DNA of 64,000 nucleotides from Clytia hemisphaerica. Its lineage: Eukaryota; Cnidaria; Hydrozoa; Leptothecata; Clytiidae. The DNA lies in assembly GCA_902728285.1 (NCBI GenBank), contig CACVBU010000538.1:127599-191598 (forward strand), read 5' to 3'. How positions within the stretch are numbered: the stretch's first letter is position 1; each line of letters starts with the position of its first letter. Shown in pieces: positions 681 through 34,238 of this stretch. Position numbers and translations under genes: made by a program. The notes beneath the pieces were generated by a model. That model saw only the letters and a list, made by a program, of their open reading frames with translations, did not search any database and was not told where the DNA came from.

Positions 681-763
681 AACTTTCCATGTCCAGATTG
701 CAATGTTGGATATCCATTGGAAAGTTTCGTAAGTCGATTGGACAGCTCACTTCCAATGTAATT
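681..763 (-). CDS. Minus-strand receptor exon: Cys loop
   Basis: The acceptor is TTTTCTTTCAG and the donor T|GTAAGT. The 83-nt exon encodes ITLEVSCPIDLRNFPMDIQH followed by CNLDMES. The two cysteines are 13 residues apart with F-P-x-D between them, the family signature. The exon is too short to stand out as an open frame and was found by motif and splice sites. Confidence 0.9.
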
Positions 764-2114
764 CTGAAAGAAAATTTCATGATATTACTATCATAAGTAT
801 AATCACATTGACCCCCAAGCTTGATTGAATCTTTATGTTATCGACAATGAGGAAACTAAATTTTTGAACCGAGAAATGATTTTTTCCTGACTGAGCCAAC
901 ATTAAAGTTCCAGTGAAATTTAGTAAAAAATAACTCTTAAGCTACCAAAATCGGAATTTTGAATAGTAATCCCTTTTCAAAATGTATGCAATATGTTACA
1001 CTCATCTCAAAAAGTAGATCTTATCTATACAGTATAGGTTAGATCCGTAAACTTGAAATTCAAGTTTGAAATTCAACGCAAACATCCTCTTTTTTTGACT
1101 TGACGAATTGCCACCCTCGTGGGTCAGGGCCATTAAACGATTCTGCGACGTAAAGAGGTAAGTGCCGTAAAATTGGAGGAGTCCTTTACATCCCCCGTCA
1201 ACGCGTCCATCAGAATTATCAATAGTGTAAGGGGGTTAGGTAAGGCCTGGAGTTGAGGGTGGGAGAATTGCCTTCTTCTTCACGTAAGAAAATAATATGA
1301 ATTGGAAAATTGAGACAAACAAACTACCTTGCACCGTGTGACACATCTCCATTACTTTTGACTTTAATTGTCTGCCCGTCATGTGCAACCCGGCTGAACG
1401 CACCACGCTTTGCTTGAACAAAATACGAATCTGGTACCCAAACCCCCATTCGAAGGTTGGATCCATCCAAGACGGCCGGATGGTGATGACGTAATCGATG
1501 GTCGTTCCATTCTTGACGTAATAGGAAATCTAATTTGAAGCTCTAAAGAAGAAGAAAATCAAGAAGGTACCTAAAGTGAGATTTACAGACTGAAATAGGA
1601 CTTGTGACCGCGGATCGACGGGGGTGTACTACTGCGGTTCGAAAAATGGACCCTACATACACAAGGGACTTGTTTTTTTGAAATCCAAATCCCCCCAAAA
1701 CGAGGAATTTCTTATTTTTCTATTTTGGTGCTTTTGCGACCCTACGTGGAAAAAAGGTACCCTGACCAGCGGCACATCATTGAGCCTGATTCTTTGATTA
1801 CCAATCATACCTTTGAACATAAAATTGGGTATCTTTTCAATTCTAGGCGAATGTTGTGTGTTTGAATGTAGTAATGTGTCACTTCATTTTAAAACTGAAA
1901 ACCAAACCCAAAAATCCATCTTAAAAGAATCCGCATACATACCGAGTGTGACAGGTCCAAATTTTCGATAGTAACCAGTTGTATTGTAACGTTAACCGTT
2001 TCGGATATTTTCGGGAAATTTGGTCTCAAATTGGGTTCATACTGGGCAGATCTTCGAAGCTTTTGTAACACAAACCAATCTTTTCTTTCGAATTCTATGT
2101 TTTCTGGTATGAAC
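681..2114 (-). CDS. Cys-loop ligand-gated ion channel subunit, partial (three exons)
   Basis: Three consecutive extracellular-domain exons of a pentameric Cys-loop receptor, read leftwards: 2114-1943, 1542-1328 and 763-681. Together they give about 155 residues: YEPNLRPNF (loop D side), FLLRQEWNDHRL, GVWVPDSYF (loop A region), then CPIDLRNFPMDIQHC, the 13-residue Cys loop. All introns are GT-AG and phases join (2, 0, 2, 1). These are the same phases as in the plus-strand receptor at 21.6-34.2 kb, whose corresponding exon is also 83 nt long. The Cys-loop motif CPxDLRxFPMDxQxC fits the GABA/glycine-type anion-channel branch. The signal-peptide exon lies to the right and is not identified with certainty. 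The four membrane segments must lie beyond the left window edge. Which ligand it binds cannot be told. It could be a pseudogene fragment, but no frame is broken. Confidence 0.88.
1328..1542 (-). CDS. Minus-strand receptor exon: loops A/E region
   Basis: The acceptor is TTCTTCTTTAG and the donor AG|GTAGTT. The 215-nt exon runs in one open frame and includes FLLRQEWNDHRL and VWVPDSYFVQAKRGAF, which are diagnostic of Cys-loop receptors. It starts in phase 0 and ends two bases into an Arg codon, exactly as exon 4 of the plus-strand gene does. A longer open frame in another register overlaps it but has no family similarity. Confidence 0.88.
1943..2114 (-). CDS. Minus-strand receptor exon: N-terminal helix and loop D region
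   Basis: A pyrimidine-rich tract ending TATACAG precedes the exon, and it ends TCG|GTATGT. One leading base completes a codon, followed by 57 codons including DWFVLQKL, YEPNLRPNF and VNVTIQLVTIENLDL. This matches the family pattern LL..YD..LRP...PV.V......I.S. In the plus-strand paralogue the same stretch is split over two exons (23951-24018 and 24549-24619), so one intron differs between the two genes. Confidence 0.85.
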
Positions 2115-2278
2115 CTGTATAGATTAAAAAGACAAAAAATAACCTTTTTAAGTCCCAGTGGAAGCGAAGAAACTGGGGAGACTTCCTCCCTACTTTTCCT
2201 CCCTAATTCACGCATTTACCTTCATGACGCAAGTGAAAAAGCCAATTCACGCATTCACGCAAACCGCTGGAAAGGCCT

Positions 2279-2505
2279 TTAAAGGGACATAACAGTACTT
2301 GCGAAATTTGTAAACAAACTGTATGCAGCGGATACAAAATCAAAACAAATGTCACATGTCAAAATAAAAAATAAAACCAAATATGGCTAATTTTGATTGT
2401 TCAATTGTTTTACAAGTTTGTTTTGGACACGTGATTTTAATTGTTCTCTTTAATGACACGTGGTTCGCGCAATGTTTACATTTTACTACTTTAATGTCCC
2501 TTTAA
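2279..2505. mobile_element. piggyBac-like MITE, copy 1 (TTAA-flanked)
   Basis: TTAA at 2279-2282 and 2502-2505 flanks a 219-bp element with ends AGGGACAT and ATGTCCCT. A second copy, in reverse orientation and interrupted by another transposon, lies at 60603-61295. TTAA duplication is the hallmark of piggyBac-type insertion; there is no coding capacity. It lies just upstream of the receptor exon at 1943-2114. Confidence 0.85.
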
Positions 2506-2685
2506 AAGGCAGTCCCCCAAACCAGGATAAAGTTGATTTTGATATTGAAAATACAGTAATCGATAGACCTGATGCTTACTTATTAATCTAATGACTTCAT
2601 TAATTATACAATTTCATACGATTCATAACAAATGATTAATCAAATATGTAACTTGTTTTAACAAAAACAAAAAAAACATATTATT

Positions 2686-3273
2686 GGTCGTGTTCACACT
2701 ACAGACCTTCCTTAATAAAAATGTAGTTAGGAGAATCTTTTGTTGACTACAATACAGAACGTGCATTTAACAAAGAGTCGAACGCGTAGTATTGTACTTT
2801 TTAATCGATCTTCCTTAATTAACAGTCGTAAGCTCCATTGTCTTAAGGGTAGGGTAGAGGCTTCCCTTAAAACAAAAGATTTTATTAAGGAAGCATAAAC
2901 AAAGAATGCGTGCAGTGAAGAAAAAGTTTTACGATTTCAAAAACGAATGAACTGAGGAAAAAATTAGAAATAGTGCAAACGGTGTTGTTGATGTGTAAGA
3001 TGAATGCAGTTAATGAGTAAAACCATTAGAGCAAATATGTTTGCGGATTTCAAGTGATGTATGGATACCAATATCATGCAATCACAGGTGAAATCGAAAC
3101 TCTCAATAAAAAATCAACCAATTAGAAGCCTTAAGAAAAATCAATTACCGTGTTATAATAGATCTCGTGAACCTACAAAGAACTGTAATAAACCAGTGTA
3201 TTCATCCATCATAAATCTCTTTGTTTAACTTTGATAGATTTAATTAAGGAAACCTTCCAGTGTGAACGCGCCC
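2686..3273. mobile_element. Non-autonomous DNA transposon, about 590 bp
   Basis: Imperfect terminal inverted repeats of about 35 bp: left GGTCGTGTTCACACT with CTTCCTTAATAAA; right, read in reverse, GGGCGCGTTCACACTGG with TTTCCTTAATTAAA. No coding capacity is seen between them. The superfamily is unclear because no clean target duplication is visible. Confidence 0.65.
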
Positions 3274-4177
3274 ATTAAGAATCTGTTGAAGTCATTATCA
3301 TATAAACAATATATTGTATTTAAGTGACACGAATTCCCATTGGGGCAATTTTGATTTTGTAACTTTTTGTTTGAATAATGCGTCATTTGACCGGATAATT
3401 TTCAAACTTGCTAGAATTTTTTGTAGTATAAATATCAAAAAACGGAAAAGAAATTCATAAAATTTGGAACTGTTTTATAAAAGGTATAAGAAGTGTCATC
3501 GAGTTTGATGTTAAATTTCCCCATTCATTTTAAGCATGCACTGATTCTTGTTTGTCCAAGTTCCACTTTACCAAAAAAAAAGATATTTACCATCAAAGGA
3601 TAGTTAATTAATTTTTTTTTAGATTGTTTATCTTCTTCATTTGCATATTTTTGGAATTATTTTTCTCAACGATTGTAATGCTCTGAATTATCTTTTCGAC
3701 GGTTTATAATTTATATTATGTTAAGAAGTATTAATTGAAGGCAGGATGCCAAGCAAAAAAGAATCAGTGCATTTAAAGCGGATGGACTTTAGAACTGGGT
3801 TGATTTTTTTCTATTCATCAATAAATTCAGTTTCTTTTCAGTTGAGGGTAAACTGCCAGAGCTCAAAGACCAAGATAGAGGGTACACGCCAAAACCTTTG
3901 GAGATACCGGAAGGGGGTAATTATTATAGTGTCAAGCATCAGGATGTTGGAACTTCATTGGTACCTAGTAAGTGGAAAGAGGCGCCTTGGATAAGGGAGA
4001 AGGGCATATTTAGCCAGTGAGACAGGGATCTTTCTGTAATTGATCCAGTAAGACAAGGGTGTCTTGAACAAGCGAAACTCAGGGGTGTCAAAAAAAATAA
4101 AAAAATAAGGGTTAATCTGAGCAAATGAGATAGCTGTTGTCATAGATACATGAGAAAGATTTAGAGAGTTAAGAGAC
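3274..4177. other. AT-rich intergenic, no gene seen
   Basis: AT-rich sequence. A minus-strand frame ending at 3939 (about 61 codons) begins with a signal-peptide-like run LTLIFLFFLTPLSF, but it overlaps a region containing CACCCCTGA and TGTCTCACTGG pieces that resemble decayed repeat family 2. I do not call it a gene. Confidence 0.4.
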
Positions 4178-4424
4178 TACACGTTTTTTATAAGAAAAAA
4201 ACTATATAAGAACAAGGCTTCGATCGCCAAAATGTTAAGAACAAGTTAAGAACATTTTAAGGCTTTGCGGACTCGGAAACAACCAATTATTTAGGAAAAT
4301 GGGTAAAATGTTCACAAAATGGAGAAATAAAACATTTCAAGAACATTTTTAGGCTTAAAACCCAAAAAGTCAAGAACATCCAAAGGCTTCAAAGATTTTG
4401 GATGTTTTTATAAAAAAACGTGTA
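4178..4424. mobile_element. MITE family 1 (TACACGTTTTTTATAAGAA), full copy
   Basis: A 247-bp element with inverted ends TACACGTTTTTTATAAGAA. The interior alternates GTTAAGAAC, AAGGCTT and TTAGGAAAATG motifs. At least twelve more complete or partial copies lie in this window (see entries at 9541, 24809, 37955, 39907, 46817, 48647, 49004, 49288, 50197, 61440, 62385, 63491). Each end carries TA, consistent with a TA target site. Confidence 0.85.
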
Positions 4425-5260
4425 TTCAAAAAGCTCACCCATTGATAAGATTGCAGAGTGTAGATATAGTGGTGACAACTTCGTGGTATTCAGTATGTTG
4501 AAGCGATGCTGTGATTTGGTGCCAATTGCAGCCTATACACTGAAAATGAAAAAAAACATACATGATTTTTTATATAAACAGCCCGTAGCAACCGGGGGGG
4601 GGGGGCAGCAGGGGCAGTTGCCCCCCCCCCAATAATTTTTCAAAAATAATTTTTTTCATTGTTGTTTTTTTTGTTTTGATAAAATAATCGAACGTGTCTG
4701 CTCGACCACCGAAGTTATTTTTCCAGATTGTATATATGGTAAAAAAGTTAGCTATGAAATTATTTCAATCTGTTGTGGGAAAATAGTTCAAAAATAGGGT
4801 CTTTTTATCTAAAAATTCTAGAAAATTCGCCAGCTATAAAATTTATGACGCTCTTAGAAGGTTTATGGCTTTGCATGCTCTAGAATATATGTAATTTCTT
4901 AGAACAATTTTAAAAATATTTTTAGGATTAAAACCTAAAAATACTAAGATCACCCGAAGGTTTCAAAAGTTTTTGACGTTTTTCTAAAAAATGTTTTCGT
5001 GATTTCTTATCCATTTCATAAATACACTTCCGAAACCAAAACAAATTAAGGACAAAATTATTCAAAAATTCGACAAGGACAATTGATCTTCATCAATTTC
5101 GTACCCAGAGCAACTTGCAGTACTTTTTTAGTACCTCCCGTGGGTGGTATGATATGAAAATCATTCTGAAAAACGAACTAAGAGCCGAAGAAAGTTTTGG
5201 CATCTTATAGTGCTTTTACTATGATCAGTCCCTAGGGAAGGCACTTAGCCAAAATTGGGT
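4425..5260. other. Intergenic with decayed MITE and G/C homopolymer hairpin
   Basis: Positions 4593-4631 hold a G run and a C run separated by CAGCAGGGGCAGTTG, able to form a G/C hairpin. A decayed copy of MITE family 1 is recognisable at about 4860-4993 (TTTTTAGGATTAAAACC). No coding exon was seen. Confidence 0.45.
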
Positions 5261-5560
5261 ACGGGGACGTGCCGCTGGTCAGGATCACTTTTTTAGGCTC
5301 TGAAGGTATCAGACAAGGTCCCAAATTAACTGATTTTCTAAATGTTAATCTGACAGGGTCGATTTTTGTTAATTTAGGACAATTTTCAGGGTGAAAATTA
5401 GAAATGTTTTCAATTTCTCTTCTACTTTTAGTCATTTTTACCAATTTTCAGGGTAAGAATTAAAAGAATTTTCGACTTTTCGTTCTGACAGGGTCCCAAA
5501 TTTACCAAACATTCATATCTGACAGGATCCACATTTCGGACTCCAGCGGCACGTCCCCGT
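5261..5560. mobile_element. GC-ended MITE with reiterated interior
   Basis: Perfect 18-bp terminal inverted repeats ACGGGGACGTGCCGCTGG enclose 264 bp in which variants of TCTGACAGGGTCCCAAATT recur about four times (near 5308, 5349, 5485, 5518). No coding capacity. The plan of GC-rich ends plus one short motif repeated inside recurs in unrelated sequence at 38930, 45525, 60171 and 62856. Confidence 0.75.
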
Positions 5561-5783
5561 CGACCGTCAAGGACCATTCTATTTCCTTGTACAATATACG
5601 ATCTTTTTTGTAAGCTATCAAATACTTTCGTACCATGATAGGGAATTTCAACCAACATTCTGGACTAATAGTCACTCCAATGGATAAAATCGATAATAAA
5701 AGTTGCGTCAAATGCCCCTCTTCGTCCCAGGTATCTATTTGTCCGATGATTGAAGTCAGGTTGTGAGTGTCCGGCAAATCCAT
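5561..5783 (-). other. Unrecognised minus-strand open frame
   Basis: About 74 codons of non-repeat sequence reading SIIGQIDTWDEEGHLTQ and PIMVRKYLIAYKKDRILY, running directly into the MITE end at 5560. A second frame is also open over its lower half. Codon choice looks protein-like, but I recognise no family. It may be an exon, or a fragment cut off by the transposon. Confidence 0.2.
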
Positions 5784-6566
5784 ACTCTTAATGTTTCTTC
5801 AATATCTAGAAATAATTTTTTTTGAAATCTATATTGGTATCCAATCTAAATACCGCATGTTTGAGTCTTTAAAAAACTTTAGAACTTGTTTTCATAATCT
5901 TTGATATTTTAAAGTTCGAAAACCTGGGCTCATATCATTTGAAAAAGTCACAAAATGGAATAATTGGTAACTGCATAGCAAAAAGTCGTGACGTGACGTC
6001 TAATGGATATAGAATAAATAAAAATGAAATGGAATATATCCTATCAATCTTTACGTCACAATAGAAATGGGTTTGACCTTATACCAGGTGAATTTTCAGG
6101 AAACAGCTTCATCCAGGGTAACAATTAAAAAATTACGGGTCAATTTTGAACCGATTTTTGTTCGAAAGTTTATCCCAGCATGCGCTCACAAAAACCATTT
6201 TTTCCTTCAATTCGCACAAATCTCGCAAGCTTTTGACCGTGCTAAAGTGTACAACACTTTAAAATCTGAAATGCACTCCCAGGCTACTCATACATACGCA
6301 ACACGCCTTCCAAAGACTTGACCTACGTAAAATATCAAACTGGTATAAAGCTGTCAATTTATATAGAAAAACTTGACATAAACAATCTAGTCTTGGCTAA
6401 ACGGGGCGTGGTAAACGACTTCAATGGAGATGAGCTAAAACTAATAATTTCTATTTCGTAAAAGATTTGATTAATTCATTAGAAAAGTGTACTAAAGATT
6501 TGTTTAAAAATCGAACCTTAGCTTTGAAGTTTTAGAACTTTAGTAGAGCCGGCTTGTAGAAGAAAG

Positions 6567-6818
6567 ATGGAATTTTTAAGAAAAATCAAATCATGTTATT
6601 TGACGGAGTGCATAGATAACAGGAAAGAGTTGATTTGTGACTCGATGGTAGATGATGTAATCGTCCGTAAAGCTGGCGCACGGAAAAATATGGTGTGGAA
6701 GGTTAAAGCAGTTCATGAATATAGAAAAAATGCGCCATATTCATGGATTATACAGACAACAACAACTACAGAGAAAAACTTCCGTCTTCGCGTTTGTTCT
6801 CTGAAATACGTCTTAGAA
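6567..6818 (+). other. Unrecognised plus-strand open frame, truncated by a MITE
   Basis: Begins MEFLRKIKSCYLTECIDN and stays open for about 84 codons before entering the palindromic element at 6819. The remaining codons of that frame are transposon sequence. No family is recognised and no splice context is convincing. Chance or a decayed gene fragment are both possible. Confidence 0.18.
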
Positions 6819-7020
6819 TACACCTTTCCGAACGTAGCCACCAATTGCCGCAGAGGCATTTTTTGTCCGTTTTACCACCCTAAAACCGTCCCAGTCTTCT
6901 TTTTCACACCTAAAGACAATAAAAAAAGTGTAAGAAAAAAAATTGGATCGAGTTTAGGGTGGTAATTTAAATGATAAAGTGGCATGCGCTTGGCCGCGCA
7001 ACTACGGTCGAAAAGGTGTA
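6819..7020. mobile_element. TA-flanked palindromic MITE, copy 1
   Basis: A 202-bp element whose halves are imperfect reverse complements: TACACCTTTCCGAACGTAG at the left and GGTCGAAAAGGTGTA at the right, with TTACCACCCTAAA facing TTTAGGGTGGTAA inside. A second copy of nearly identical length lies at 33669-33871 in the receptor's last intron. Confidence 0.8.
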
Positions 7021-7106
7021 TATAAAATAGTCTAGATTTGTAAGCTTTGTTGTTTAATATCCATGATGTGCGAAAATAATGTCTATGTCCAATGTTCTAT
7101 ATATCC

Positions 7107-7375
7107 TTTAAAAAAAAAAAGTAAGTATATTCATCTGGTGGCTGTCGGCGGAGCCGGGAGTGGAAAGTCTATCCCCTTTTCTATTTGCGCTAGACCTGGG
7201 AGATCGAATGCTGAGGTGGAGCGCCACACCTACTCTCAGCTCCCAGTAAATTACCACCTAGATCAGATTACCCAATCTAAGCTACTCATCCGCTGAGTTG
7301 GCGGTGACCGGGGATCGAACCCACAACCCTTAGATTGTAAGGCGAATGTCTACCGACTGAGCTACCCGGTCACAG
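7107..7375 (-). mobile_element. tRNA-derived SINE
   Basis: Reads on the minus strand: tRNA-like head (7373 to 7303), a body of about 180 bp, and a T-rich tail at the low-coordinate end. The flanking ATATATCC at 7099-7106 and 7376-7383 is a likely target-site duplication. A box (TAGCTCAGTCGG) and B box (GGTTCGATCCC) are both intact, so polymerase III transcription is plausible. No second full copy was seen in the window. Confidence 0.7.
7303..7373 (-). pseudogene. tRNA-like head of the SINE (anticodon-loop TAC)
   Basis: A 71-nt tRNA fold with a seven-pair acceptor stem GTGACCG/CGGTCAC, a normal D-arm start, and an anticodon loop CTTACAA that would read TAC (Val). The T stem is about two to three bases short, and two extra bases sit between the acceptor and D arm. 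It therefore looks like a SINE head, not a working tRNA gene. Confidence 0.6.
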
Positions 7376-7816
7376 ATATATCCAATATCCTTCAACCGAG
7401 TATAAAAGGTAAGCTTTTTACTTTCATAAATATAATACAAGAATTCCAATTAAACATGAAATACAGTTTGTTTATAACCATCCAGCGCAAAAGTCAAAAA
7501 GGAGATGTGTGACATATTTAGTAGCAAACAACCAAAAATGTATTGATATCTACTAAAGATGTATCATGCTCTCCTTTCGAAACTTGCATAAAAATGTATT
7601 TATCATAGGTTTTTTTTCTGATATGTAGTAGTGTGAAAAAAAACTTATTAAAACGAAAAATTTGAAGAAAAACATGAAAAAGTGTTACCCAATTCTGACT
7701 GAGAAAGAACTAAACGAAAACAGAAGAAACAAGGGTTCAGTTAATAAAATAATGGTATATAGCCCTACAAGGCGTCAAATACGACGAAAAATACTCTCTC
7801 TTCACTTCTTTCAAAA

Positions 7817-8008
7817 TCAACGAAAGTTTTCTTTTAAGAAGAACAAGTTTTTTTCTTGTGAAATGAAATGTACTACCAGGCCCCTACCAGTTGACAGTGT
7901 GTTGCCTTGTTTTTTGGCCAAACTTTTTCTTATTTCGGATAAAAAAAGAAACAAAATTTGCACATTGCCAATTGCCAGAATGACAACAAATATCTTCAGG
8001 ACGGTCAT
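7817..8008 (-). other. Signal-peptide-like minus-strand frame (possible 5' exon)
   Basis: Starts MTVLKIFVVILAIGNVQI, a good signal-peptide core, followed by a second hydrophobic run and KSLAKKQGNTLSTG, then a possible donor ACTG|GTAGGG near 7885. It lies upstream of the minus-strand receptor exons, where a signal-peptide exon is expected. However, the donor phase (1) does not fit the receptor exon at 2114 (needs 2), so another exon would be required between them. Speculative. Confidence 0.2.
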
Positions 8009-8829
8009 TTTGTAAAATCATTGGGCCAAAGATTAAACATTTAGAACAAAAGAAAATTTAAAAATTAGTGTAATTAAAAAATTAACAGACTCGAACTAGC
8101 TCTAAAACCAGATGAGTCTGAAAAAAGAATTTCTCTAACTTCTTACAAAAAAAAGGGTTGTATGTATAGTTTGCCCCTCATGTGGTGTGTCTCATAAGGT
8201 CATTCATTTATACTTATCGCTTTATAATATACTTTTTCTTTGTTTTCTTTTGAAAATCATCCTATTCTTTTGATTTCTTTCTGATATGATTTCTTTATAA
8301 TCTTATTTTTCTTTTCTCTCTACGCGTTTGTGCAATCTTCCGAATTTTCCACGTAAATAACTCATTTTTTTTATATATCTATCTTTTTTATTGTTGTTGT
8401 TCTTTCTTTTGTTCTCCTTAAAAATTTCCATCACATTTTTTTTTGTAATCTAGGGGTTGGCGTTTTGACAGAGTTGACAACGAAAAAATATTCTTCTCAA
8501 ATATTTGGGGAGAATTTTTTTTGTCATTGGGTCACGTTGTTTGTCAAGGATTTTTTCTTTTGAAAAGGTTTTACTGCTGACTTTCTCGCTCACCCTAATT
8601 CGATTTTCAAAAGACTGAGAATCAAAATTGCAGGATGGATTTTATACCAGCTGAAGGAACCGATGCCTTAGTTTGAATTATAGAATAGATCGATTTACAG
8701 AGATTCGATTTTGCAACATGGCGTTTTGGATCGAAAGTTTTAAGAGGGCAACAATAAGACACACTTTTATTTATAAGAAAATACTTTATAAGAATATTGA
8801 TGATGAAATTGGCCAAAAAATCAAAAATA
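8009..8829. other. AT-rich intergenic, no feature seen
   Basis: Low-complexity T-rich tracts (8160-8460) and no convincing exon, repeat family or RNA gene. Confidence 0.5.
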
Positions 8830-9115: not shown

Positions 9116-9540
9116 AAATGGTAAGAATACTACCATACCATCATGGAATTTGGAACCTGAATCTAGCAATGCCATTTTTAGAGAATTTTAGCATTAAATA
9201 GCCAGCCCATTCCCCAGAAACGTTAATGATGAAAGGACTGTCAATTCTATTCTTTTCAGTATTTCGATGTTTCTTCTTCTCTATCTAGTTCCGTACTACT
9301 TTCAAATATACAAATCGCCCACGTGACCCTAGTGATCACGTGATCTAAATGCCAATCAAATATCTTTCACAGAACACCAGCAATATGCTAAAAGGTTTTC
9401 CACTAAAACGCCAAATTTTTGCTTCAGGTATGTATTACATGCTAAATGTTGCCTGGGTTGGTTCCAAACCCATAAAAACCGTAAGGATAGTTCAGGAAGC
9501 TAAAAAGCTAAGAATATTCATATAATGAATTAACAGCGTG

Positions 9541-24900: not shown

Positions 24901-27900
24901 TTATAAGACTTAGAACACCCAATTTCTTAAGAAAATGGACAAAAATACTCAAAAATTGGTGAAAATAAGAACATGTTAAGAACATTTTTAGGCTTAAAAC
25001 TCAAAAAATTAAGAACAGCCGAAGGCTTAAAAAAATTTAGATTTTCTTGTAAAAAACGTGTATTGGGCTTCTATATCCCTCTTTCCCTACAACCGTAATA
25101 ATTTTCATATTTTTTAAAGGTCATCCTAGACATATTTTCTTCATTTTTTCTTTGTTTTTCATTTTCATAAATCTTTTGCTTCCCAGACGTAGTTAAACGA
25201 TAAACATGGAGAAAAATTTGTAAACTCGAACAGTTTGAAGAAAAATCTACAGTCTCCAGGTCAAGATGTTTGCTTTTTCAAACATAACTACTAATATTTC
25301 TAAAATATTCTAGACGTATCAAATCAAACAATGATTACGTAATTTCTTAGGTATTAGACACGTGACTATGTTCAAGTTTAAATAATGACGTAATTTTCAA
25401 CATTCAAAATGGCCACCTTTTTATTTTCTGTATAAAGAGCTTATTAAAGCACTTAGCCTACAAATTAAGCCGTAATATTCACTACCGAGCCAACCATAGA
25501 ATATCTAAGAATGATCTTTTTCAAATGGTATTAAAACTAGGTCGTAATAAAATATCAAACCGCTTGGACAGAGACCCATTTTGAAACCACGCCTTATTGA
25601 CATTAGCATTACCACTTTTGAGCTTTGGCCTTCAAATCACCACGGCTCAATTTAAAATGGAAACGATGCCTCGTATTAAAAGGATTTTTCCTCAAATTGA
25701 GGACACTAAAAATTCTTTATCGAGCTATTCATAACCACAAAACAAAATACAATTCCTGTAAAAAATAGCAATTTAATATTCTATTTAGAATCAAAAGTTT
25801 TCACCCCACTATACACCCCATTATCCAGATATATTTCTGTTCAACTATCTCCTTTCAGGAGATTTGGGTGGCAGATTAGCATATGCATTTCATCCTTATT
25901 AGGACTCGTCAGCACTGCATACTGCACCCTGGCTAGGCAGACCGAATTGCCTATATATTTGGTCCTTGAAGGGTTGAAATATTCTTGGTCGAATGTATTT
26001 CTTTATCTTTCTATTCCAGGATTATCAAATCGACTTCTTCTTTCGTCAAAGTTGGACGGATGAACGTTTAAAACATTCCTATCCACAGACTCTAACTCTT
26101 TCTAATTCTATGCTGGACAAATTATGGGTACCAGATACCTATTTTGAAAACTCAAAAAATTCACAATTTCATTCAGTCACTGTACCAAATAAAATGTTGA
26201 AAATCAAACCGGACGGCACTGTTTTATATAACGCAAGGTGAGACCTGTGAGGATTCAGGGAAATTCACCCTACCGATACACCGGGCAGCACAAATAATGT
26301 CCGGTATTAGGAAAAAGTACTTCTGGATACTGGACAAAATGCATCGGCGTCTGATGTATCGGCAGGGTCGTATTTAAGTTTGATAAAAGACATTGAACTT
26401 ATCTGGGTATAACGGCAGGATAGAAATAAGTCAGGATAGGCTTTTGTTTGAAATTGGTTACCCTTGGACTTACCAATCTTTGCAACTATAATCAATGGGA
26501 ATTAAAGTACACTTCAGTACCACGTGCATCAAGGGAGATTGTACGGCCGAGGAGTGCTGTAACTTATGTCGCTCTTCTTTTTTTTACACTGTCCGAGTAG
26601 GGAGTAATATTTTATTCCTACTAGTTTAAGGGTAAAACGTGTAATATTTCGATCACTTTTCAGGATATCGGTACGCGCATCATGTCCAATGGATTTGCGC
26701 ATGTTCCCTATGGATTCACAAGAATGTAATCTCAATATTGAAAGCTGTAAGTTTTATCAAACTTCTCTTTCTCGATTTTTCCTTATGTCAGAAATTGCAT
26801 CTCCCGAATAAAGGAAAATGGGTTGATAGCGCCGCGGATGGCACTTCGAAAAACTTCAAAAAGAAGTTTCTCGGTAGAAAACTCTGCTCAATTCTGGTAG
26901 AATTAACCATTGGTGGATCTTTATAGGGGTCAAAGTGAGAAGATTTATAAGACATGACAAATTTCCTTCAGTCCCTAGTTTAGTGGAACAAATTGCTACA
27001 AAATTTTGAATTTGGCTTCATGGCTTCCTGGCTTCTCATATCAAAAATATTGGAATTTCTTTCAGATGGTTACAGTGTGTATGACATACGTTTCCAATGG
27101 GAAGAAGATAAACAGAAACGACTTTCTATCGGCACTAAAGTTCGTACACTACCACAATACAATCTCACACAATTTGACACAGCTAACAGTACAGAAGCTT
27201 ATGTCGTAGGTAAGGTTTAATAACAAAATAATGTTAAAGTAAATTACATCTCTGAACCCTTGAAACTTTAGGGAACTGGGTTAGAGTTTACAAGGGATGA
27301 TCAAACGTCAAAAGTCTTAAATCGTTGCATTAATTTCATCAAAGACAAAAAATCCTAGCGCTTTAGAGCTCTATAGGAACTTTAGGAAAGACTGGAACAC
27401 ACTGGACTCAGACGGTGAAAAACATACTTTGGGATCGGATTAGAAAATTACCCAAGATTCCATTATTAATCCGATATTTTCTCTTTCCAGCTCTGCTGGG
27501 CTTGCTGTGAATGGATATCTCCATAACAATTTCTAGCTAAAAATGAAAACGGTCTGTGTCTAGAAACAGTAAAGCTGTGAAAAGTGTTTACAATCACCGG
27601 TTTCACACATCAGAGTATTAGTCTCCACCATTTCAGACTACATTTTTGAGATCACTGGGGATGAAGAATCGTTGCAACTCCTGTTATTGCGCAGGGAGGT
27701 TTTTGTTACCTAAGCTTGAAAGATTAAAATCGAAAATAATATTGTGACCCACTCTGGAATTCCAAATAATTTTAAGGGTAAAATAAAAGAAATAAAGTAA
27801 AGGCTTGAATAGTTTGCTCGAAATTCGCCTGAGTTTAAGGTTGATCTAAAGCTTTTGTTACTCCAATTTATATTTTACACTTTCACCGAAAGAATTTGAA

Positions 27901-30900
27901 AATATTTTCCCTTGTTTTCAAAAATCTTTCTCTGAAATTTTAGCTAGGTATATATTTTCCCACGAATAACTAGCGAAACTAGTAGTAGTAGTTTGCCGTA
28001 CTTTGCGGTTGAAACTGCGAAAGCAAATGCTTTTTTTGACAAAGCAACGTGGGCCTAATTTAAGCGATGTTCTTGCAAAATAACATCAGAAGGTTGTAAT
28101 AAGCTATTTTTTAGATATATCAGTAGGTCACACAGCGGACAACATCTCATAGTCACGGATATATTAAAGAGGGTGTGCAAAATAAAGGAGCCCTGTCCTT
28201 GCTTCTGCTACCAGGCAGAAAGTCCCTAGCATGTAGTGAGACCTTAGATTTGCTGCCATCGAGGCAAAAGGTCCAATCTCAAAATTAGTGTCTGAGAAAA
28301 CTGAGAATTTTTCTGTTTGGCTAACCTTAAATCTTGAGCTTAGCCCTTTTTTCATAGTCAGGGGGATCCCATCTACATGAAAAAGGGTCAATCTCAAAAT
28401 CTAAAGATAGCAAAACAGAAAAATTCTCAGTTTTCCCAGACACTAATTTTGAGATTGGACCTTTTGTCTTGATGACAGCGATATTGAACCTACGGCATTG
28501 TAGGACCTTTACTAGTCACTGCTGAAATGAAATATTAGGGTCATTCCCTACCTAAGATGGGTAACTATCAAACAAAGAGGCTCTTTTATACTTACCTAAA
28601 AAAGCTAAAGTTCTTATTTTCTCTGTGATTTACACGGGGATTTACATAACCTATCTCATCAAAAATTCCCTTTCTCCCTTTTTTTAGGTAATTATTCAAG
28701 GTTGACAGCTATTTTCGTATTACAGAGACGCACCGGTTACTTCTTTCTTCACTTGTACGCACCGTGCGCTCTTATTGTTATGATTTCATGGATTAGTTTT
28801 TGTATACCAAAAGATTCGACGGCAGCCAGGGTTGCATTGGGAATCACTTCAGTGTTAACCATAACAACTATCTTAAACATGCTCAATACTGCTATGCCAA
28901 AGGTATGACCTCTTTATTTTGTCACCCTCTTCTAACCAGTCAACTAATTCGAACCTCTACTATTCGAACCAAAATAAAGGCTTGGATTCCGATCAAAGTT
29001 TTTGGTCCCTTGAGAATCAATTATAGAGAGAGTCCATTATATGTACTTCCGTCAACACATGTCTTGTCAAAGTATCTCAAGGGGTTGCAAAAATGAAATA
29101 ACATAGCCTAAGGGAAGAACTCTAAAGGAACTCTTTTGACTGTCTTCTCTCTGAGAAATACTTTTTTCCATCAAAATTTATAGTCTGAATCGCAGACCTC
29201 TAAAGATACATTTCCTATAAAAGAAACATTTTTCGCTAGAGGATGAGCAGATACCCACAAAATTTAGGTACTTTTAGAACTCTTTAGGAGAAGGGTTTGT
29301 AAGTGTGGTCCGCACATATCCGACATTCTCCAACCCTAGTATATCATAGTAGCTCTCAAAACCTTCTCCCTCCAATTGACTGAAACGGTTCGCGTCTTTG
29401 TAACATTGGATAGCTCAACGAAATTTAGGACCATTGAGAGTCAGTTCTCTGTTGCCAATATAGAGAAATATGAAAACTTTGACTTTCTCAGCCAACTAAC
29501 CGACCAAAGATTACTAAAAGACAATTAGGGAGGGGAGTAAAACTGTAGCCAAAACAACCAAAACTGAACATTTTGTTCCTTTTTCTCCATTTCTCTCAAT
29601 GAATTCTCCTTCGAATCTTCACGTTCACCAATATATCCAAAAGAAAAAGAAATGCGGCGTTTCTTCAATTAGTTAAAATTCCTACCAAAAAATATCCATA
29701 TCATACAGTGCTCATGTAATAAATTTTCTCTAATTCTAACCTGTAGAATTCTCTTTGAAGATCGAACTAAAGCGCTGTACGAATGTTGGATACCATTACG
29801 GGCATTGCAACCCAGCTGGCACGCAACGTTGTTTTAACGTTCATCTAACGTTATATGGACGTTATAAACGTTGAAACAACGTTGTGTGCCAGCTGGGAAA
29901 CCAGCCGGGAAACTTACCTCTTTTACTTCATTTCTCTACACAGGTTTCATACATCAAAGCGGTCGATTGGTATTTGATCGTCAGCTTCTTGTTTGTGTTT
30001 GCAGTACTGATAGAGTACACGTTGGTTTTATACCTCACTGATAAAGAAAAACAAACACAGGAAGAAAATAAAAACAAATTCAAAAAGAAGAGACCACCAA
30101 ACATGGACAAGCAGGTAAAATATCAACAAAACATTTTTCAAAAGATTAACTTTGGCAAGATACATCTTTGGTTAAAGTTTGAAGGGAATTGGATGAACCA
30201 TTCTTGTGAAATTCAAGTTTTAGTTTTTATATGACGCAATAATCATTTTTCCGGTTTTTCGCGAAAATCAGCGAAAAAACAATTAGGTTACACCTCATGT
30301 TAGAAACAACATCATAGTACCCTTCATGTTCAGTCATTTGTTCATTTTCTGTCGACTTATGCGATCTAAAAATTATGGTAATTTTAAGATATTTCATAAT
30401 TTACCTGAGACTGTCACCCGAGGGGATAACGCGTACGAAAACATACCCCCATGTTGAGGAGTTCCAATCTTTTTTGCTCTACGAATTCCAACTTAAGTAC
30501 TTAACCCTTTTTGTTTCAAGCAGCTTTAGTATACAAAAATTCACTTTCCCCTGAAATTCCGTTTATTTTTCAAGAAACTTAAGAAAAACAACTCAATAGA
30601 ACGGCAATGAATATCCTTAACAGGGAAAAGTAAATAGTTTATTTCTGGAAAAGCTAATATAGAAAGTTCATTTTTCGATACTAATTATTCTTTCAGTTCG
30701 TTGGAGCAAATGGTCACGTGATCGACCGTAATAACCATCACGAATTACGTTCAAGGGCGTACCAAAACAACAACTACAAGGAGGTATGTGTCAATGTCCC
30801 CACCCTATCGGTTTGCTAGCCTGTTAGAAGCTAACTGAAAAGATAACGCGAAGTTCGGTTTGTTACGGTTAGACATTCCATGTCTCTCTGAGATTTTTAC

Positions 30901-33900
30901 GCAAAACGTTTTTTTTGACGTTTCGAATTACGTTCATACTTATTTTCTAATCGTTGAACCGAAAATAACCTTATTTATTTACTAATCCTTCAGAAAAAAC
31001 GCAAGTACTGTTAAAGGCCTTAAAAGCAAAATCTAAGAAAATGAAGAAAGTGAAAACGAGATAATTTGTTGAGACATTCTTGTGCCCTTTTATTTAGTTT
31101 AGTAGTTAACCGTTTCAAGGCTGTAGTAGTTAACCGTTTCAAGGCTCTCCTGGAACACGATAAAAAAATAGATACTGTACGAAAAGTTATAAACTTAATT
31201 CTACGAAATTATACAGCTTCATAAAAAACACTACTTTCCTTAGCCTGGATATCCAAGCTCAAAATTTTAGAAAAAACAAAAATTACCTCAACATACAAAG
31301 TTCTAAAATTATAGAGCTTGGTCTCCCTAGAGAAAGAAAGTGCAAACCCATGTTTCCTAGTAAACCCAGGGCAGCAAAACAGAAATTAATAAAAAGCAGT
31401 CTTACAAGATCTAAAACTATTTAAAACATCCAAAGATTACACCAAAGTCCATGAACAAGTTTGCATGCATTATCATGACCAACCATGTTTTTTTGGAAAA
31501 TGAACTTGCCTCTGTTTTCTTCCTTTTGATATTTTCATGTAACAGAAAACTCCATCTTCACTAGCAAGTGGAGGACTATCCTATTTTTGCTTCAGAATTG
31601 CTCCACGCCATGTATATTGGTCCTTACGGCTTTAACGAAGTGAGCGCAAGCAAGCGGAATGCATTCTCATATGAGAATGCAAAACGCTCTAGGGAGACCA
31701 GGCTGTAAACCAGAACATAAAAATATCAAAAACTAGACTGTGAAATAGTTTACAGCCTGGATATCCAGGCTATACTTTCCTTTGAAATAAAATGTTACTT
31801 TGCCTACTGTCAAAATTGAATAAACACCATATTCTTTACAATAATTACCGATATTATTATACTTGAGGTCCTAAAAAAAAACCTAATTCTACGAAATTAT
31901 ACACCTTTTTATGCACCAATTCCTCTGGGATATAGCAAAATAAAATGGTACTTTGCCTACCATCAAAATTGAAATTATTCATAGTAGTTAGAGCAGCAGT
32001 TATCAATAGCAATATACTTGAGGTCCTAAGTAGACCTAATTTTGATAAAATACACATCTTTCCTTTAGATATAAACCGCTACTTTCCTTTTGAAAAATAT
32101 TCTACTTTCCTTTTGATAAAAAACACTATTTTTCTTTGACCAATCCCTGTGGGATCATTACTGTGAGAGGCCTTAAAAGCAAAAAATAAGGAAATGAAGA
32201 AAAGTGAAAACCAGATATCAAAATCGCATAACCTACTTTACAGCAATAACCGATATTAAAAAATTAAGGTCCTCTTAGGCACTTCTTTTAAATTTATATC
32301 AAATTTGCTTACTTTGAGCTTTTTTATAGAAGCCGCTATCTTCATGCTATCTTGTTGACTTAGACAACGGATTGATACAAGTCCCCCGGACAAAAACCTC
32401 CGGACCCTGGTGGTCAAAATTGGGTGCCCAGGCTGTCTCAATTTTTTACTGAGCTGTCGTAGAGGAAACCGTAAGGGCCTCGAAAAATCCGTTCGGTATA
32501 CTCGACAAAGGTTTTCGTTTTGTAAGTGCCCGAAAGGAGTCTTTATTTACATAGAAGTTTTCTACTGAAATACTCAATACACCCTCGCATTGTCATCTCT
32601 TACTGCACCCTCACAGCATTACTCATAAATTCTTGCTGCACCCTCACAGCATAAGATATATTACTCTTGCCCCACCCTCACGGCATAAAATACATTACTA
32701 TTGCCGCACCCTCACAGCATAAAATACATAAATTCCTGCTGCACTCTTACAGCATAAAATACAAAAAACTCTTGACGCACTCTCCGTGAAAACAGCAAAA
32801 AAAACTGTTGACAATATCCTTCCTCGAGAATATTAAAAAGGAAAAAGAAAAAATTGAGAATATACTAGAGAGCTTGAAAGACGTGTGAACGTGGTCATAA
32901 TCTCACTTACCGAAACAGAGTTTTTTCAGAATATGAAAAACGCGCATGGGTGGGGTGGTACAGGCGTGATGACGTGGTTTGCGTGATGACGTGGTTTGTG
33001 TGATGACGTGGGTTTTTTCGTTGCGTGAACGTGCAAAGATCGAAAAAGAAATTACATGAAAAAATATTCCAAATTTCCGGAATATATGACGAAAATCTCG
33101 AATTTAGAAGAAATTTTCGGTCGCAGAATTTATGTTACATTAGGTTAGACGACCTGACGGAAAAAATTGACAAATACACCCGATTGGTTAGATACCCCCT
33201 GAAATCCTCCCCTTAAAAGTGGAGCGTAAGAACAAAGTAAGAAGTGGCGAGTCACAGATGATTCGAAAGAAGAGAAGGGACAATGTGAGAATGCAGAAGT
33301 TTGAAATATACGATCTTTTTGACAAAACTTTTTAAAAGCTAATTAAAGTTGAGCTATCAATTCTCTAAACTTTCGCAAATCACTCTCTGCTTCGAGTAAT
33401 TTCAAAGAAGTTTACGCATTGCCGTGAAAAATGCACGAAAATCGTAAAAGTAACTGTTCACAAAAATTTGAGTATTTCAGAAAGAATTTTAGAAATTTAG
33501 AAAAATTATTGCAAAACCCTAGCATGGAATTTCATTTTCTTGGTAAATCTACATCTGATAAACACTGTACCACTAATATTCCAAATCATATACGTCATAC
33601 TCTAATACAAAAATATCCTCTGTTTCATTGATATCCAAAGCGTGACACGTCAGGTCAGTTTGAGTGAATACAACTTTTCGACCATAGCCGCTAATTGACG
33701 CGCGGGCATTTTTTTGTTCGTTTATCCACCCTGAACTCGATCTAATCCTTTTTTTTTCACATCTTTATTTATTGTCTATAGGTGTGAAAAAAGACTGGGA
33801 CGGTTTTAGGGTGGTAAAAAGGACAAAAAAATGCCCGCGCGCCAATTGGCGGCTAAGGTCGAAAAGGTGTATTTACAGATCACACCAGTCACGCCTGTTT

Positions 33901-34238
33901 TGATATTAAAAAAATTACGTCATTAAAAATCAATCAAAATTCTTTTTTCTCTTTAGAACCATTACGATTGTTCTGACGGTGAATTTCAAACGAAACCGTT
34001 AATCGTCGTCTTAGAAGAGAAAAACCTACGAAATCATCGACAAAACCATCATCACCATACGCGCGCGCACAACGACGACGATCATTCGGCCGCGCTACAA
34101 TCGCACACTGGTAAATTTCTATGTGAGTTCCGTGTAGATGTTATAGACGAATATTCGAGAATGATTTTCCCACTTGCGTTTATCATTTTTAACATTGTAT
34201 ATTGGTTACTGTTTTACAGTAAAAAGAATGAAAAATGA
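21642..34238 (+). CDS. Cys-loop anion-channel subunit, GABA-A receptor-like, complete (10 exons)
   Basis: Ten coding exons (21642-21973, 23951-24018, 24549-24619, 26020-26237, 26664-26746, 27066-27209, 28688-28902, 29944-30114, 30697-30783, 33957-34238) join in frame to 1671 nt, 556 residues plus stop. All introns are GT-AG. In order: a hydrophobic signal segment at about residues 26-45; [15 protein letters not shown]; the Cys loop (C237-C251, 13 apart); TM1 about 324-345; TM2 [17 protein letters not shown] (351-367); TM3 about 387-408; a basic and His-rich cytoplasmic loop; TM4 about 533-551. TM2 has the Ala-Ala-Arg entry and Leu at 9', as in beta-type GABA-A subunits, which conduct chloride. 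Loop C lacks the second cysteine pair of glycine and glutamate-gated channels. It should assemble as a pentamer in the plasma membrane. Ligand and orthology cannot be fixed from sequence alone. Confidence 0.93.
22031..22232. mobile_element. pogo/Tigger-like repeat in receptor intron 1
   Basis: Left end AGTCTCCATAACTCGAA and right end GTTACAGAGGTTTGAA, with an internal TTGTTCGAGTTATAGAAA. ATAACTCGAA ends are typical of pogo/Tigger-type elements. A related copy is at 57270-57448. Confidence 0.55.
22233..23950 (+). other. Remainder of receptor intron 1
   Basis: AT-rich intron. A short palindrome GGTACGGCGGCTGCCGTACC sits at about 22331-22350. Short open frames here have no family similarity. 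Confidence 0.5.
23951..24018 (+). CDS. Receptor exon 2: [11 protein letters not shown]
   Basis: 68 nt between TTTCTTTCAG and GTAAGT. Reads [20 protein letters not shown], the classical start of a GABA-A-type extracellular domain, with an NIS glycosylation site. Confidence 0.9.
24549..24619 (+). CDS. Receptor exon 3: loop D strand
   Basis: 71 nt between GTTATAG and GTAAAT. Reads [20 protein letters not shown] then DM, matching the PV.V.....SI..I...M pattern. Ends in phase 0. Confidence 0.88.
24809..25062. mobile_element. MITE family 1 in receptor intron 3
   Basis: Complete copy starting TACACCTTTTTTCTAAGAAC and ending TTGTAAAAAACGTGTA, in the same orientation as the copy at 4178. Confidence 0.82.
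25850..25945 (-). ncRNA. Hammerhead-like structured repeat, copy 2, in receptor intron 3
   Basis: Read on the minus strand it has CTGACGA, a stem-loop (GTCCT, AATA, AGGAT) and an intact GAAA: the three elements of a hammerhead core. A GTATGCA/TGCATAT helix flanks the core in the stem-III position, and an outer helix GGGTGCAG/CTGCCACCC closes it. Stem I is reduced to a couple of bases. Downstream ATCTCCTGAAAGGAGAT is a hairpin shared with copy 1. It is antisense to the receptor transcript and ends about 75 bp before exon 4. Confidence 0.5.
26020..26237 (+). CDS. Receptor exon 4: loops A/E
   Basis: 218 nt with acceptor TCTATTCCAG and donor AAG|GTGAGA. Contains [32 protein letters not shown] and [10 protein letters not shown]. 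The WVPDTYF block is near-invariant in Cys-loop receptors. Confidence 0.95.
26664..26746 (+). CDS. Receptor exon 5: Cys loop
   Basis: 83 nt reading [20 protein letters not shown] then CNLNIES, the two Cys-loop cysteines separated by 13 residues. Its length equals that of the paralogous exon at 681-763. Confidence 0.95.
27066..27209 (+). CDS. Receptor exon 6: loops B/F
   Basis: 144 nt between TTCTTTCAG and GTAAGG. Reads [18 protein letters not shown], then [11 protein letters not shown] with an N-linked site, ending TEAYVVG, which leads into loop C. Confidence 0.9.
   Translation: MVTVCMTYVSNGKKINRNDFLSALKFVHYHNTISHNLTQLTVQKLMS
28250..28481. mobile_element. Palindromic MITE in receptor intron 6
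   Basis: Arms 28252-28325 and 28408-28480 are reverse complements for about 70 bp (AAAAGGTCCAATCTCAAAAT and CTGAGAATTTTTCTGTTT inside). The loop is about 80 bp. No coding capacity. Confidence 0.75.
28688..28902 (+). CDS. Receptor exon 7: loop C, TM1 and TM2
   Basis: 215 nt. [20 protein letters not shown] leads into TM1 ([18 protein letters not shown], with the conserved Pro) and TM2 ([17 protein letters not shown]). Ends AMPK in phase 0. Confidence 0.95.
28930..29050. repeat. Possible decayed pogo-like repeat, receptor intron 7
   Basis: AATTCGAACCTCTACTATTC facing TATAGAGAGAGTCCATTATA resembles the ends of the elements at 22031 and 57270. Degraded. Confidence 0.3.
29811..29897. repeat. 87-bp palindrome CCCAGCTGGCAC in receptor intron 7
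   Basis: CCCAGCTGGCACGCAACGTT faces its complement ending GTGTGCCAGCTGGG. AACGTT occurs repeatedly in the centre. It ends about 45 bp before exon 8, close to the splice acceptor, so it could form an RNA hairpin in the pre-mRNA. Confidence 0.8.
29944..30114 (+). CDS. Receptor exon 8: TM3 and start of cytoplasmic loop
   Basis: 171 nt, 57 codons. [20 protein letters not shown] begins TM3, then EYTLVLYL, followed by a strongly basic loop (KKKRPPN). Bounded by CACAG and GTAAAA. Confidence 0.93.
30697..30783 (+). CDS. Receptor exon 9: cytoplasmic loop segment
   Basis: 87 nt, 29 codons, phase 0 on both sides (TTTCAG ... GAG|GTATGT), encoding a polar segment [17 protein letters not shown]. Because both ends are phase 0, it could be skipped without a frame change. 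Confidence 0.75.
31100..31146. repeat. Tandem duplication of 23 bp
   Basis: TAGTAGTTAACCGTTTCAAG is present twice in a row with its following GCT. A recent local duplication inside receptor intron 9. Confidence 0.7.
31243..31771. mobile_element. Element with AGCCTGGATATCCA ends, receptor intron 9
   Basis: AGCCTGGATATCCAAGCT near 31243 and CAGCCTGGATATCCAGGCTA ending near 31771, with an internal facing pair GGTCTCCCTAGAG/CTCTAGGGAGACC. Boundaries are approximate. Confidence 0.4.
32572..32790. repeat. Minisatellite, GCACCCTCACAGCATAAAAT unit
   Basis: About five imperfect tandem copies of a 40-50 bp unit built around GCACCCTCACAGCATAA. Inside receptor intron 9. Confidence 0.8.
32960..33017. 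repeat. Three-copy tandem repeat GTGATGACGTGGTTT
   Basis: GCGTGATGACGTGGTTT repeats three times with a 17-bp period. TGACGT in each unit resembles a CRE half-site-rich sequence, but this may be chance. Confidence 0.7.
33669..33871. mobile_element. TA-flanked palindromic MITE, copy 2, receptor intron 9
   Basis: Same family as 6819-7020, 203 bp. Ends TACAACTTTTCGACC and GGTCGAAAAGGTGTA; inner GACGCGCGGGCATTTTTTTG faces CAAAAAAATGCCCGCGCGCC. It sits 85 bp upstream of the last receptor exon. Confidence 0.82.
33957..34238 (+). CDS. Receptor exon 10: end of loop, TM4, stop
   Basis: Acceptor TTCTCTTTAG. 93 codons plus TGA. A His/Asn-rich stretch ([15 protein letters not shown]) precedes [20 protein letters not shown], the conserved entry to TM4, then [12 protein letters not shown] and a short charged tail. 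Confidence 0.92.
   Translation, partial: NHYDCSDGEFQTKPLIVVLEEKNLRNHRQNHHHHTRAHNDDDHSAALQSHTGKFLCEFRVDVIDEYSRMIFPLAFIIFNIVYWLLFYSKKNEK

Follow-up and report, generated by a model that had tools for sequence, protein, structure and literature searches.

The Clytia hemisphaerica DNA considered in the current analysis, a stretch of 64,000 nucleotides referred to here as the window, probably carries two intact genes for subunits of anion-selective pentameric receptors, transcribed away from each other, which are old paralogues and whose adjacency most likely goes back to an ancient local duplication. The genes of the mitochondrial DNA and their code indicate a cnidarian, probably hydrozoan, origin. 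In the history that we infer, the lineage of the minus-strand gene would have diverged fast after the local duplication and would have yielded a further copy elsewhere, on the contig C722 (locus L025). The pair is real and mostly ordinary, and adds new genes to a known receptor family.

Structure of the two genes

The plus-strand gene (the plus gene) is comprised of ten GT-AG exons extending from 21642 to 34238 on the + strand.

21642..21973, + strand, exon 1, 332 nt: ATG, hydrophobic leader and a long N-terminal extension
23951..24018, + strand, exon 2, 68 nt
24549..24619, + strand, exon 3, 71 nt
26020..26237, + strand, exon 4, 218 nt: loops D and A (FFFRQSW, WVPDTYF)
26664..26746, + strand, exon 5, 83 nt: Cys-loop
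27066..27209, + strand, exon 6, 144 nt: loops B to C
28688..28902, + strand, exon 7, 215 nt: end of loop C, M1, M2 and the AAR anion filter
29944..30114, + strand, exon 8, 171 nt: M3
30697..30783, + strand, exon 9, 87 nt: M3-M4 loop
33957..34238, + strand, exon 10, 282 nt: remainder of the M3-M4 loop, M4 and stop

The original prediction of a second Cys-loop gene on the minus strand, with exons at 681-763, 1328-1542 and 1943-2114, has been borne out with exact coordinates; the three exons (172, 215 and 83 nt in order of transcription) each have an AG acceptor and a GT donor and form a single open frame. As predicted, this minus gene points away from the plus-strand subunit, and it is apparently intact and of the same anion-channel class. 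It continues to the left of the window (locus L010), where M1 to M4 and the stop codon are encoded, and comprises 432 stop-free codons in seven exons, all of them GT-AG.

1943..2114, - strand, 172 nt: start of the ligand-binding domain with the motif YEPNLRP, acceptor ctatacag, donor gtatgtat
1328..1542, - strand, 215 nt: loops D and A (LLRQEW, WVPDSYF)
681..763, - strand, 83 nt: Cys-loop, C-PIDLRNFPMDIQH-C
-200..-343 (window-relative), - strand, 144 nt, locus L010
-878..-1092 (window-relative), - strand, 215 nt, locus L010
-2209..-2364 (window-relative), - strand, 156 nt, locus L010
-2857..-3171 (window-relative), - strand, 315 nt, locus L010: M4 and TGA
2115..21641, no strand: spacer between the genes, where the promoters of the two and the minus gene's undetected first exon are expected

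The ligand-binding-domain match over the 215-nt exon with loops D and A lies at C378:128919-129140. The 172-nt exon opens on the final base of a codon, and an upstream exon is therefore expected. Scans for an ATG, a hydrophobic leader and an in-phase donor gave no convincing candidate for a first exon with ATG and signal peptide, and given this missing exon the minus gene may conceivably be truncated at the 5' end. An open reading frame extending upstream of 2114 (MRELGRKSREEV...) was considered as first exon and set aside, a strong acceptor being present there. The 19-kb length of the spacer is an upper bound because the first exon of the minus gene was not found. Five open reading frames of the spacer gave no Pfam match above the cut-off, and a profile scan of 104 kb around the pair revealed no further receptor exons, all matches with E < 0.1 belonging to the pair itself.

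Family and channel class

Judged from their sequences, both genes encode subunits of the GABA-A/glycine class of Cys-loop receptors with predicted anion-type pores. The gene structures, the family and the pore motif are direct observations. The ligand-binding domain (PF02931) and the membrane domain (PF02932) are detected above the curated Pfam cut-offs in the plus protein (3.5e-50 and 1.1e-44) and in the minus protein (3.4e-35 and 2.5e-25). The PF02932 match of the latter spans profile positions 1-140 of 233, and its M4 matches the M4 of the glycine receptor in the comparison with PDB. For the NCBIfam family TIGR00860, with a curated cut-off of 280.2 bits, the plus protein scores above it (395.7 bits) and the minus protein below it (255.5 bits). 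Both have a Cys-loop of two cysteines with 13 residues between them, followed by M1 to M4. The filter preceding M2 reads AAR in the plus gene and PAR in the minus gene, with no Glu at -1' in the alignment. The nearest PDB entries are the GABA-A beta-3 subunit for the plus gene (1.1e-91) and the glycine receptor alpha-2 subunit for the minus gene (1.4e-60).

Relationship of the two genes

The plus and minus proteins share a sequence identity of 37% over 290 columns, the highest for the minus protein in the compared set, the second being 36% over 206 columns with C722. The best-supported sister of the minus gene in the trees is C722, situated on another contig (91/92 in one tree and 92/97 in the fuller tree). 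This gene shares with the minus gene an intron between M2 and M3, a 215-nt exon 7 and an aromatic residue at pore position 2', and differs from it in having P at -1' and in retaining, as read by eye, the N-terminal intron absent from the minus gene. The clade of the plus gene, the minus gene and C722 falls from a support of 83/72 in one tree to 54/5 in the fuller tree, and the branches of the minus gene and C722 are long; both observations leave a local duplication short of proof.

The weak support of this clade in the fuller tree would also suit two genes without close kinship inside the family that a rearrangement brought side by side, their adjacency being coincidental. We consider this unlikely, since 19 such genes in 417 Mb are expected to give about 0.016 chance pairs within 20 kb (our own arithmetic), and since further local groups of receptors, namely three genes on C187, two on C113 and an array on C674, indicate that local duplication is common in this genome.

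The original prediction had been that an inverted duplication, taken here as relatively recent, produced the pair and that the products might belong to a single heteromeric channel and be regulated together. The genes are divergent neighbours within 20 kb, both are of the anion type, the minus protein is most similar to the plus protein in the compared set, and head-to-head vertebrate alpha and beta genes have been proposed to be co-regulated (PMC1934366). This explanation is nevertheless considered less probable still than chance adjacency. The proteins are only 37% identical, and the trees place the minus gene closer to C722 and marginally disfavour an exclusive grouping of it with the plus gene (AU p 0.0555 and 0.047 in two trees). 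An inverted copy is likewise not apparent in the DNA. Among the 13 inverted repeats of at least 40 nt in window positions 1-34300, a search that covers the part of the minus gene lying inside the window, none has an arm in 1-2114. By blastn, -3300..2300 and 21500..34400 have three matches with E < 0.1, each of them inverted. The first joins unlike introns (103 nt, 72%, about -164..-66 with 22624..22718), the second lies in the Cys-loop exon (70 nt, 73%), and the third, of 22 nt, in exon 4. The stretch of the first match in the plus intron has at least 40 other matches in the genome and is a dispersed repeat. Likeness of the gene-body DNA is thus confined to coding exons and one dispersed repeat, and gives no support to an inverted duplication of the DNA.

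Exon pattern in the wider family

Matching exon boundaries had been taken as a sign of the inverted duplication. The 83-, 144- and 215-nt exons, which encode the Cys-loop, the region next to it and M1-M2, are indeed of equal length in the two genes, and the one N-terminal difference that was predicted is also present, the 68- and 71-nt exons 2 and 3 of the plus gene corresponding to the single 172-nt exon of the minus gene with no intervening intron. An 83-nt Cys-loop exon with identical splice sites is also encoded by 16 of the 17 further GABA/Gly-type genes surveyed in the genome, and exon 5 of mouse Glra1 is of 83 bp (PMC3484359). The exon is therefore an ancestral pattern and no mark of an inverted duplication.

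It is not a universal one. Neither of its boundaries is found in the C674 array (three genes checked), and C649 has the 3' boundary only. The loci of the exon survey were chosen partly by exon pattern, and the pores of 37 further membrane-domain places were therefore read. Three rows of the 70 membrane-domain places are the window genes, 17 are the surveyed loci, and 13 were left unread (further exons or probable copies, C232, C228, C273, C325, C543 and C789). The filters of the 37 read GER (27), GDR (4), GKR (1), GQR (1) and PAR (3, all within the C674 array), and the remaining place is C649, whose filter reads SSR.

Both window genes, and two of the 15 other genes read there (C722 and C432), have an intron after the 'PK' between M2 and M3; those of C113a, C113b and C585 lie further upstream. 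Vertebrate glycine receptor genes have an M2-M3 intron too, and that of the plus gene is placed as in glycine receptor genes. Occurring also in these and in the distant C432, this intron may be ancestral. Exon phases shared within this receptor family should hence not be taken as a sign of recent duplication.

Ligand pocket and pore

The pocket residues were identified by alignment, with a numbering that we assume, and S156 and R207 are presumably pocket positions as well. The roles of Y97, Y157, F200, Y205, E155, F65 and R67 in the pocket are those given in section 2.4 of PMC13335744. In the plus gene both faces of the pocket are kept, with F65, R67, Y97, E155, S156, Y157, an aromatic residue at 200, Y205 and R207, and its only change from the GABA-A pocket is V at T202. 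Among 19 aligned GABA/Gly-type genes, a comparison in which the loop C columns are uncertain for the divergent genes, it alone has F65, R67, Y97, E155, Y157, Y205 and R207 as in human. In the minus gene the principal face is kept (Y97, E155, S156, Y157, Y200, W205 and K207), as is R67, and L is found at both F65 and T202. Its pore has a bulky Tyr at position 2', where C722 is also aromatic.

These residues suggest that the plus subunit could plausibly work alone, and that Tyr at 2' together with L at F65 and T202 may give the minus subunit a lower homomeric conductance or a role as a partner. With most of a ligand pocket retained in both genes, the sequences neither demand a heteromer nor speak against one. 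We infer the ligand class, stoichiometry and inhibitory action of these receptors as follows: the subunits would form pentamers, in which the binding of a small amino-acid transmitter at the standard site between subunits would open a chloride pore.

There is a small probability that the minus subunit functions only as a specialised partner, in pentamers with a conventional subunit, for instance the plus product, and that the divergent locus evolved independently. The aromatic 2' ring of the minus subunit, like that of C722, would then choke a homomeric pore, and a shared upstream region co-expressing the two would keep the minus gene beside the plus gene, in convergence with the vertebrate alpha/beta pairs. 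More doubtful again is that the minus gene is a pseudogene in decay: the undetected first exon, the fast evolution, the absent N-terminal intron and the unusual Tyr at 2' would agree with decay, but the seven GT-AG exons are free of stop codons throughout, and the Cys-loop, R67, E155, the PAR filter and M4 have all been retained.

The plus gene bears on the time at which ligand-gated inhibition by GABA arose. According to the abstract of PMC13335744, neither GABA nor glycine evoked a response from any of the seven Nematostella receptors tested. The plus gene, being alone in matching the human pocket set among the aligned genes, is a good candidate for examining whether GABA, or a related compound such as taurine, is bound by a cnidarian channel. 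Aromatic 2' pores could likewise be examined with the minus gene and C722.

Comparison with known systems

Human GABRB3 and the plus gene are 48% identical over 288 columns and share the AAR filter and a nearly complete pocket. Unlike this beta type, the plus gene also has two residues typical of the alpha face, F65 and R67, and V at T202. The glycine receptor alpha subunit, to which the minus gene matches best in PDB, differs from it in a loop C cysteine, the minus gene having K where GLRA2 has C. The cnidarian-specific GABA-A-like pLGICs described in PMC13335744, among them the glutamate-gated nvGluCl, belong to the superfamily of the window genes, probably also to their phylum, and likewise have an anion filter. 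Lysine occupies loop C position T202 of the nvGluCls (section 2.4 of PMC13335744) and is absent from both window genes, which have V (plus) and L (minus).

The GABA-A alpha and beta genes of vertebrates are arranged head-to-head (PMC1934366), and these clusters likewise consist of two receptor genes of the same class transcribed apart. It is very improbable that the window pair is this same locus kept since the cnidarian-bilaterian ancestor, for although the orientation is the same, the plus gene best matches human beta-3 with its beta-type AAR filter and the minus gene has PAR-T as in alpha subunits, the grouping of the minus gene with alpha/gamma is rejected (AU p 0.005 and 0.0096), as is that with the glycine receptor (0.0004 and 0.03), the plus gene as sister of beta-3 is weakly disfavoured (0.034 and 0.07), E155 is kept in the minus gene and absent from GABRA1, and the alpha/beta split likely postdates the cnidarian-bilaterian split (discussion of PMC13335744). 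Among the titles listed by a literature search, none describes the window pair or divergently arranged GABA-type receptor genes of a cnidarian. By the trees the window genes are not the alpha and beta lineages of vertebrates, and their divergent arrangement is likely to be independent of the vertebrate alpha/beta clusters.

Structures of the two receptor genes

The window corresponds to C378:127599-191598 of a genome of 417 Mb in 951 contigs. Searching the genome with Pfam identified ligand-binding exons on each strand of the window; for the minus-strand gene it also identified a membrane-domain exon, which lies just beyond the window at C378:126503-126655 of the same contig. Exon reading gives two genes, referred to by strand (negative positions lie left of the window).

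21642-34238 (+), plus gene: ten GT-AG exons, 556 residues, with leader, ligand-binding domain (LBD), membrane segments M1-M4 and stop
2114-1943, 1542-1328, 763-681 (-), minus gene: exons in the window
left of the window (-), minus gene: exons of 144, 215, 156 and 315 nt

The original prediction of a second Cys-loop gene on the minus strand is confirmed, with exon coordinates that agree exactly with our reading. The minus gene has a single open frame of 432 codons with TGA after M4; exon reading did not find its first exon. Each of the two proteins matches Neur_chan_LBD and Neur_chan_memb above the Pfam cut-offs. The nearest PDB match is GABA-A beta-3 for the plus gene (1.1e-91) and glycine receptor alpha-2 for the minus gene (1.4e-60), and an anion-type filter precedes M2 in both (AAR and PAR, respectively). 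It is likely that these are two intact divergent anion-type subunit genes, old paralogues that became neighbours most probably through old local duplication. A decaying pseudogene on the minus strand is highly improbable; this alternative gains slightly, at the expense of the favoured reading, from the TIGR00860 result, in which the plus gene scores above the cut-off and the minus gene below.

Other features of the region include a Ser/Asn-rich open frame at 41263-43014 (-) of 584 residues, which matches nothing in Pfam at 0.05 and probably belongs to an unrelated gene as one of its exons. A further open frame, at 52240-52533 (-), has a match to a PAN-like domain that is weak (0.0016, under the cut-off). 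Two satellite-like arrays, at 44988-45190 and 46011-46332, run in opposite orientation; their 20-22 / 42-nt unit reads ATATTGTTGTGAGAATTTTG or close to the reverse complement of it. Further left, beyond the minus gene, a Gln-rich open frame of about 600 residues (-12496 to -14310, minus strand; loci L009/L010) has a segment that, in our impression, looks like a Myb/SANT-type DNA-binding domain.

Exon organisation across the family

The matching exons had been taken as a sign of inverted duplication. This does not hold, as the 83-nt Cys-loop exon (exon 5 in plus-gene numbering) recurs with both splice sites at homologous bases in 16 of 17 other GABA/Gly-type genes. The survey covered 18 further receptor genes of the genome, the last, C666, being of nicotinic type and having neither splice site. 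C585, the remaining GABA/Gly-type gene, keeps the donor and has its acceptor 3 nt upstream (86 nt). The exon 4 acceptor lies at the identical base in 14 of the 17. In C113b it is 3 nt upstream; C113a and C431 fall outside the test, the column having been taken in both from sequence running on out of the preceding exon. For exon 7, the acceptor position agrees in 14 of the 16 genes read, with C113a and C113b shifted by 3 nt. An exon 6 with matching phases was proposed by a scan under our own scoring in 16 of 17; C585 gave nothing convincing. Exon 5 of mouse Glra1 is likewise 83 bp (PMC3484359, in excerpt). Because of its presence in the 16 genes and in Glra1, the pattern is, on exon comparison, ancestral and lost in some lines. 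The one rarer feature common to the pair is an intron that follows the M2-M3 'PK'; of 15 other genes read at this place, two share it (C722 and C432).

As survey loci were chosen partly by exon pattern, the pores at another 37 of the 70 membrane-domain places were also read, 13 of the 70 being left out of this reading. They comprise 27 GER, 4 GDR, 1 GKR, 1 GQR and 3 PAR, plus C649. Each PAR place lies in the C674 tandem array, where both 83-nt boundaries are absent from the three genes checked. C649, GABA-type by its M2-M3, keeps the 3' boundary alone; it has S-S-R before M2 and merged exons 4 and 5 (L001, L050).

In inverted orientation, the DNA of the gene bodies is alike in three places only. 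Two are in coding exons, 70 nt at 73% in the Cys-loop exon and 22 nt in exon 4; the third, of 103 nt, is a dispersed repeat that lies in unlike introns of the two genes. This repeat of about 100 bp lies at 22618-22719 and about -66 to -164, in one intron per gene, and the genome contains 40 or more further matches to it.

Phylogenetic relationships

The first tree (27 rows: 8 references and 19 genes, C666 left out) unites the minus gene with C722 (91/92), the plus gene joining them at 83/72. For the second, exon 6 was added and five rows were dropped after the first tree had been seen: C768, C56, C435 and CHRNA7 for long branches and C585 as incomplete. Here the minus gene again joins C722 (92/97), and the group of all three receives only 54/5. 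Because both branches are long (1.13 for the minus gene, 1.73 for C722), this union may partly be long-branch attraction. The AU p values are 0.0555 and 0.047 for an exclusive plus-minus pair; 0.005 and 0.0096 for the minus gene with alpha/gamma, and 0.0004 and 0.03 with the glycine receptor; and, for the plus gene, 0.034 and 0.07 with beta-3, 0.029 with C780 and 0.0475 with beta-3 plus rho-1. Within this set the minus gene has its highest identity with the plus gene, at 37% across 290 columns, and its next with C722 (36% across 206 columns). The original reading is not refuted in this respect, as the pair does not fall into clearly distant clades, but the trees do not show the two genes as sisters and place C722 next to the minus gene.

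Ligand pocket and pore

Pocket residues were assigned by alignment, the roles of most being taken from PMC13335744. On its complementary face the plus gene keeps F65 and R67; its principal face carries Y97, E155, S156, Y157, Y at position 200, Y205 and R207, and T202 is replaced by V. The minus gene has Y97, E155, S156, Y157, Y200, W205, K207 and R67, with L at both F65 and T202. Given these residues, either subunit could in principle accommodate a small zwitterionic amino acid, and the plus subunit might assemble as a homomer. Unlike Nematostella glutamate receptors, neither gene has the loop C lysine.

Pore position 2' is Tyr in the minus gene and Phe in C722, and is aromatic in no other row (C460 has a gap there). 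An aromatic ring may narrow a homomeric pore of the minus subunit, and a partner role may then be favoured for it. The pore of C722 (L025) is unusual, S-P-P-R, with Pro at -1'. The GABA-type genes C432 (L028) and C464 (L030), a supported clade (96/81 in the first tree, 100/100 in the second), have G-D-R before M2 in place of P-A-R. Asp at -1' occurs in a Nematostella clade predicted to form cation channels (PMC13335744, in part); the two genes may be similar to it or convergent.

Genomic neighbourhood

By our own arithmetic about 0.016 receptor pairs are expected within 20 kb by chance, and chance adjacency of the two genes is unlikely. The surveyed genes include three other neighbouring pairs, C187a-b (convergent) and C187b-c and C113a-b (both tandem). 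With the window pair, one pair of four is divergent, the share given by random orientation; the C674 array, if counted, adds at least six tandem pairs. This single-strand array (C674:154-187 kb; L002-L004, L007, L008) holds at least seven receptor genes; the five read have the PAR filter and LBD plus M1-M3 within one large exon, a case of intron loss and local expansion. Contigs C543/C789 and C232/C643/C915 of the assembly (G000) have receptor matches of identical or near-identical score in parallel spacing. Both haplotypes are probably retained there, in which case family counts may be inflated.

The mitochondrial contig C900 carries nad4 (by eye), cob and partial cox1. Because cob arginines at positions that we take to be conserved lie on AGA/AGG, and the cox1 match has three in-frame TGA, code 4 fits over the invertebrate or echinoderm codes. 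Together with the gene order, this points to a hydrozoan. Hydroidolina have one common mitochondrial gene order, and medusozoan mtDNA is linear (PMC10261974, in excerpt).

Comparison with known systems

Radiations of this superfamily are described in cnidarians, with 39 members for Nematostella, 14 for Hydra, 21 for Aurelia and 20 for Stylophora (PMC13335744). Vertebrate GABA-A alpha and beta genes lie head-to-head, and their co-regulation has been proposed (PMC1934366, in excerpt); the divergent receptor-gene arrangement is therefore not new in kind. The tree, as a comparison of sequences, speaks against common descent of the vertebrate and Clytia arrangements.
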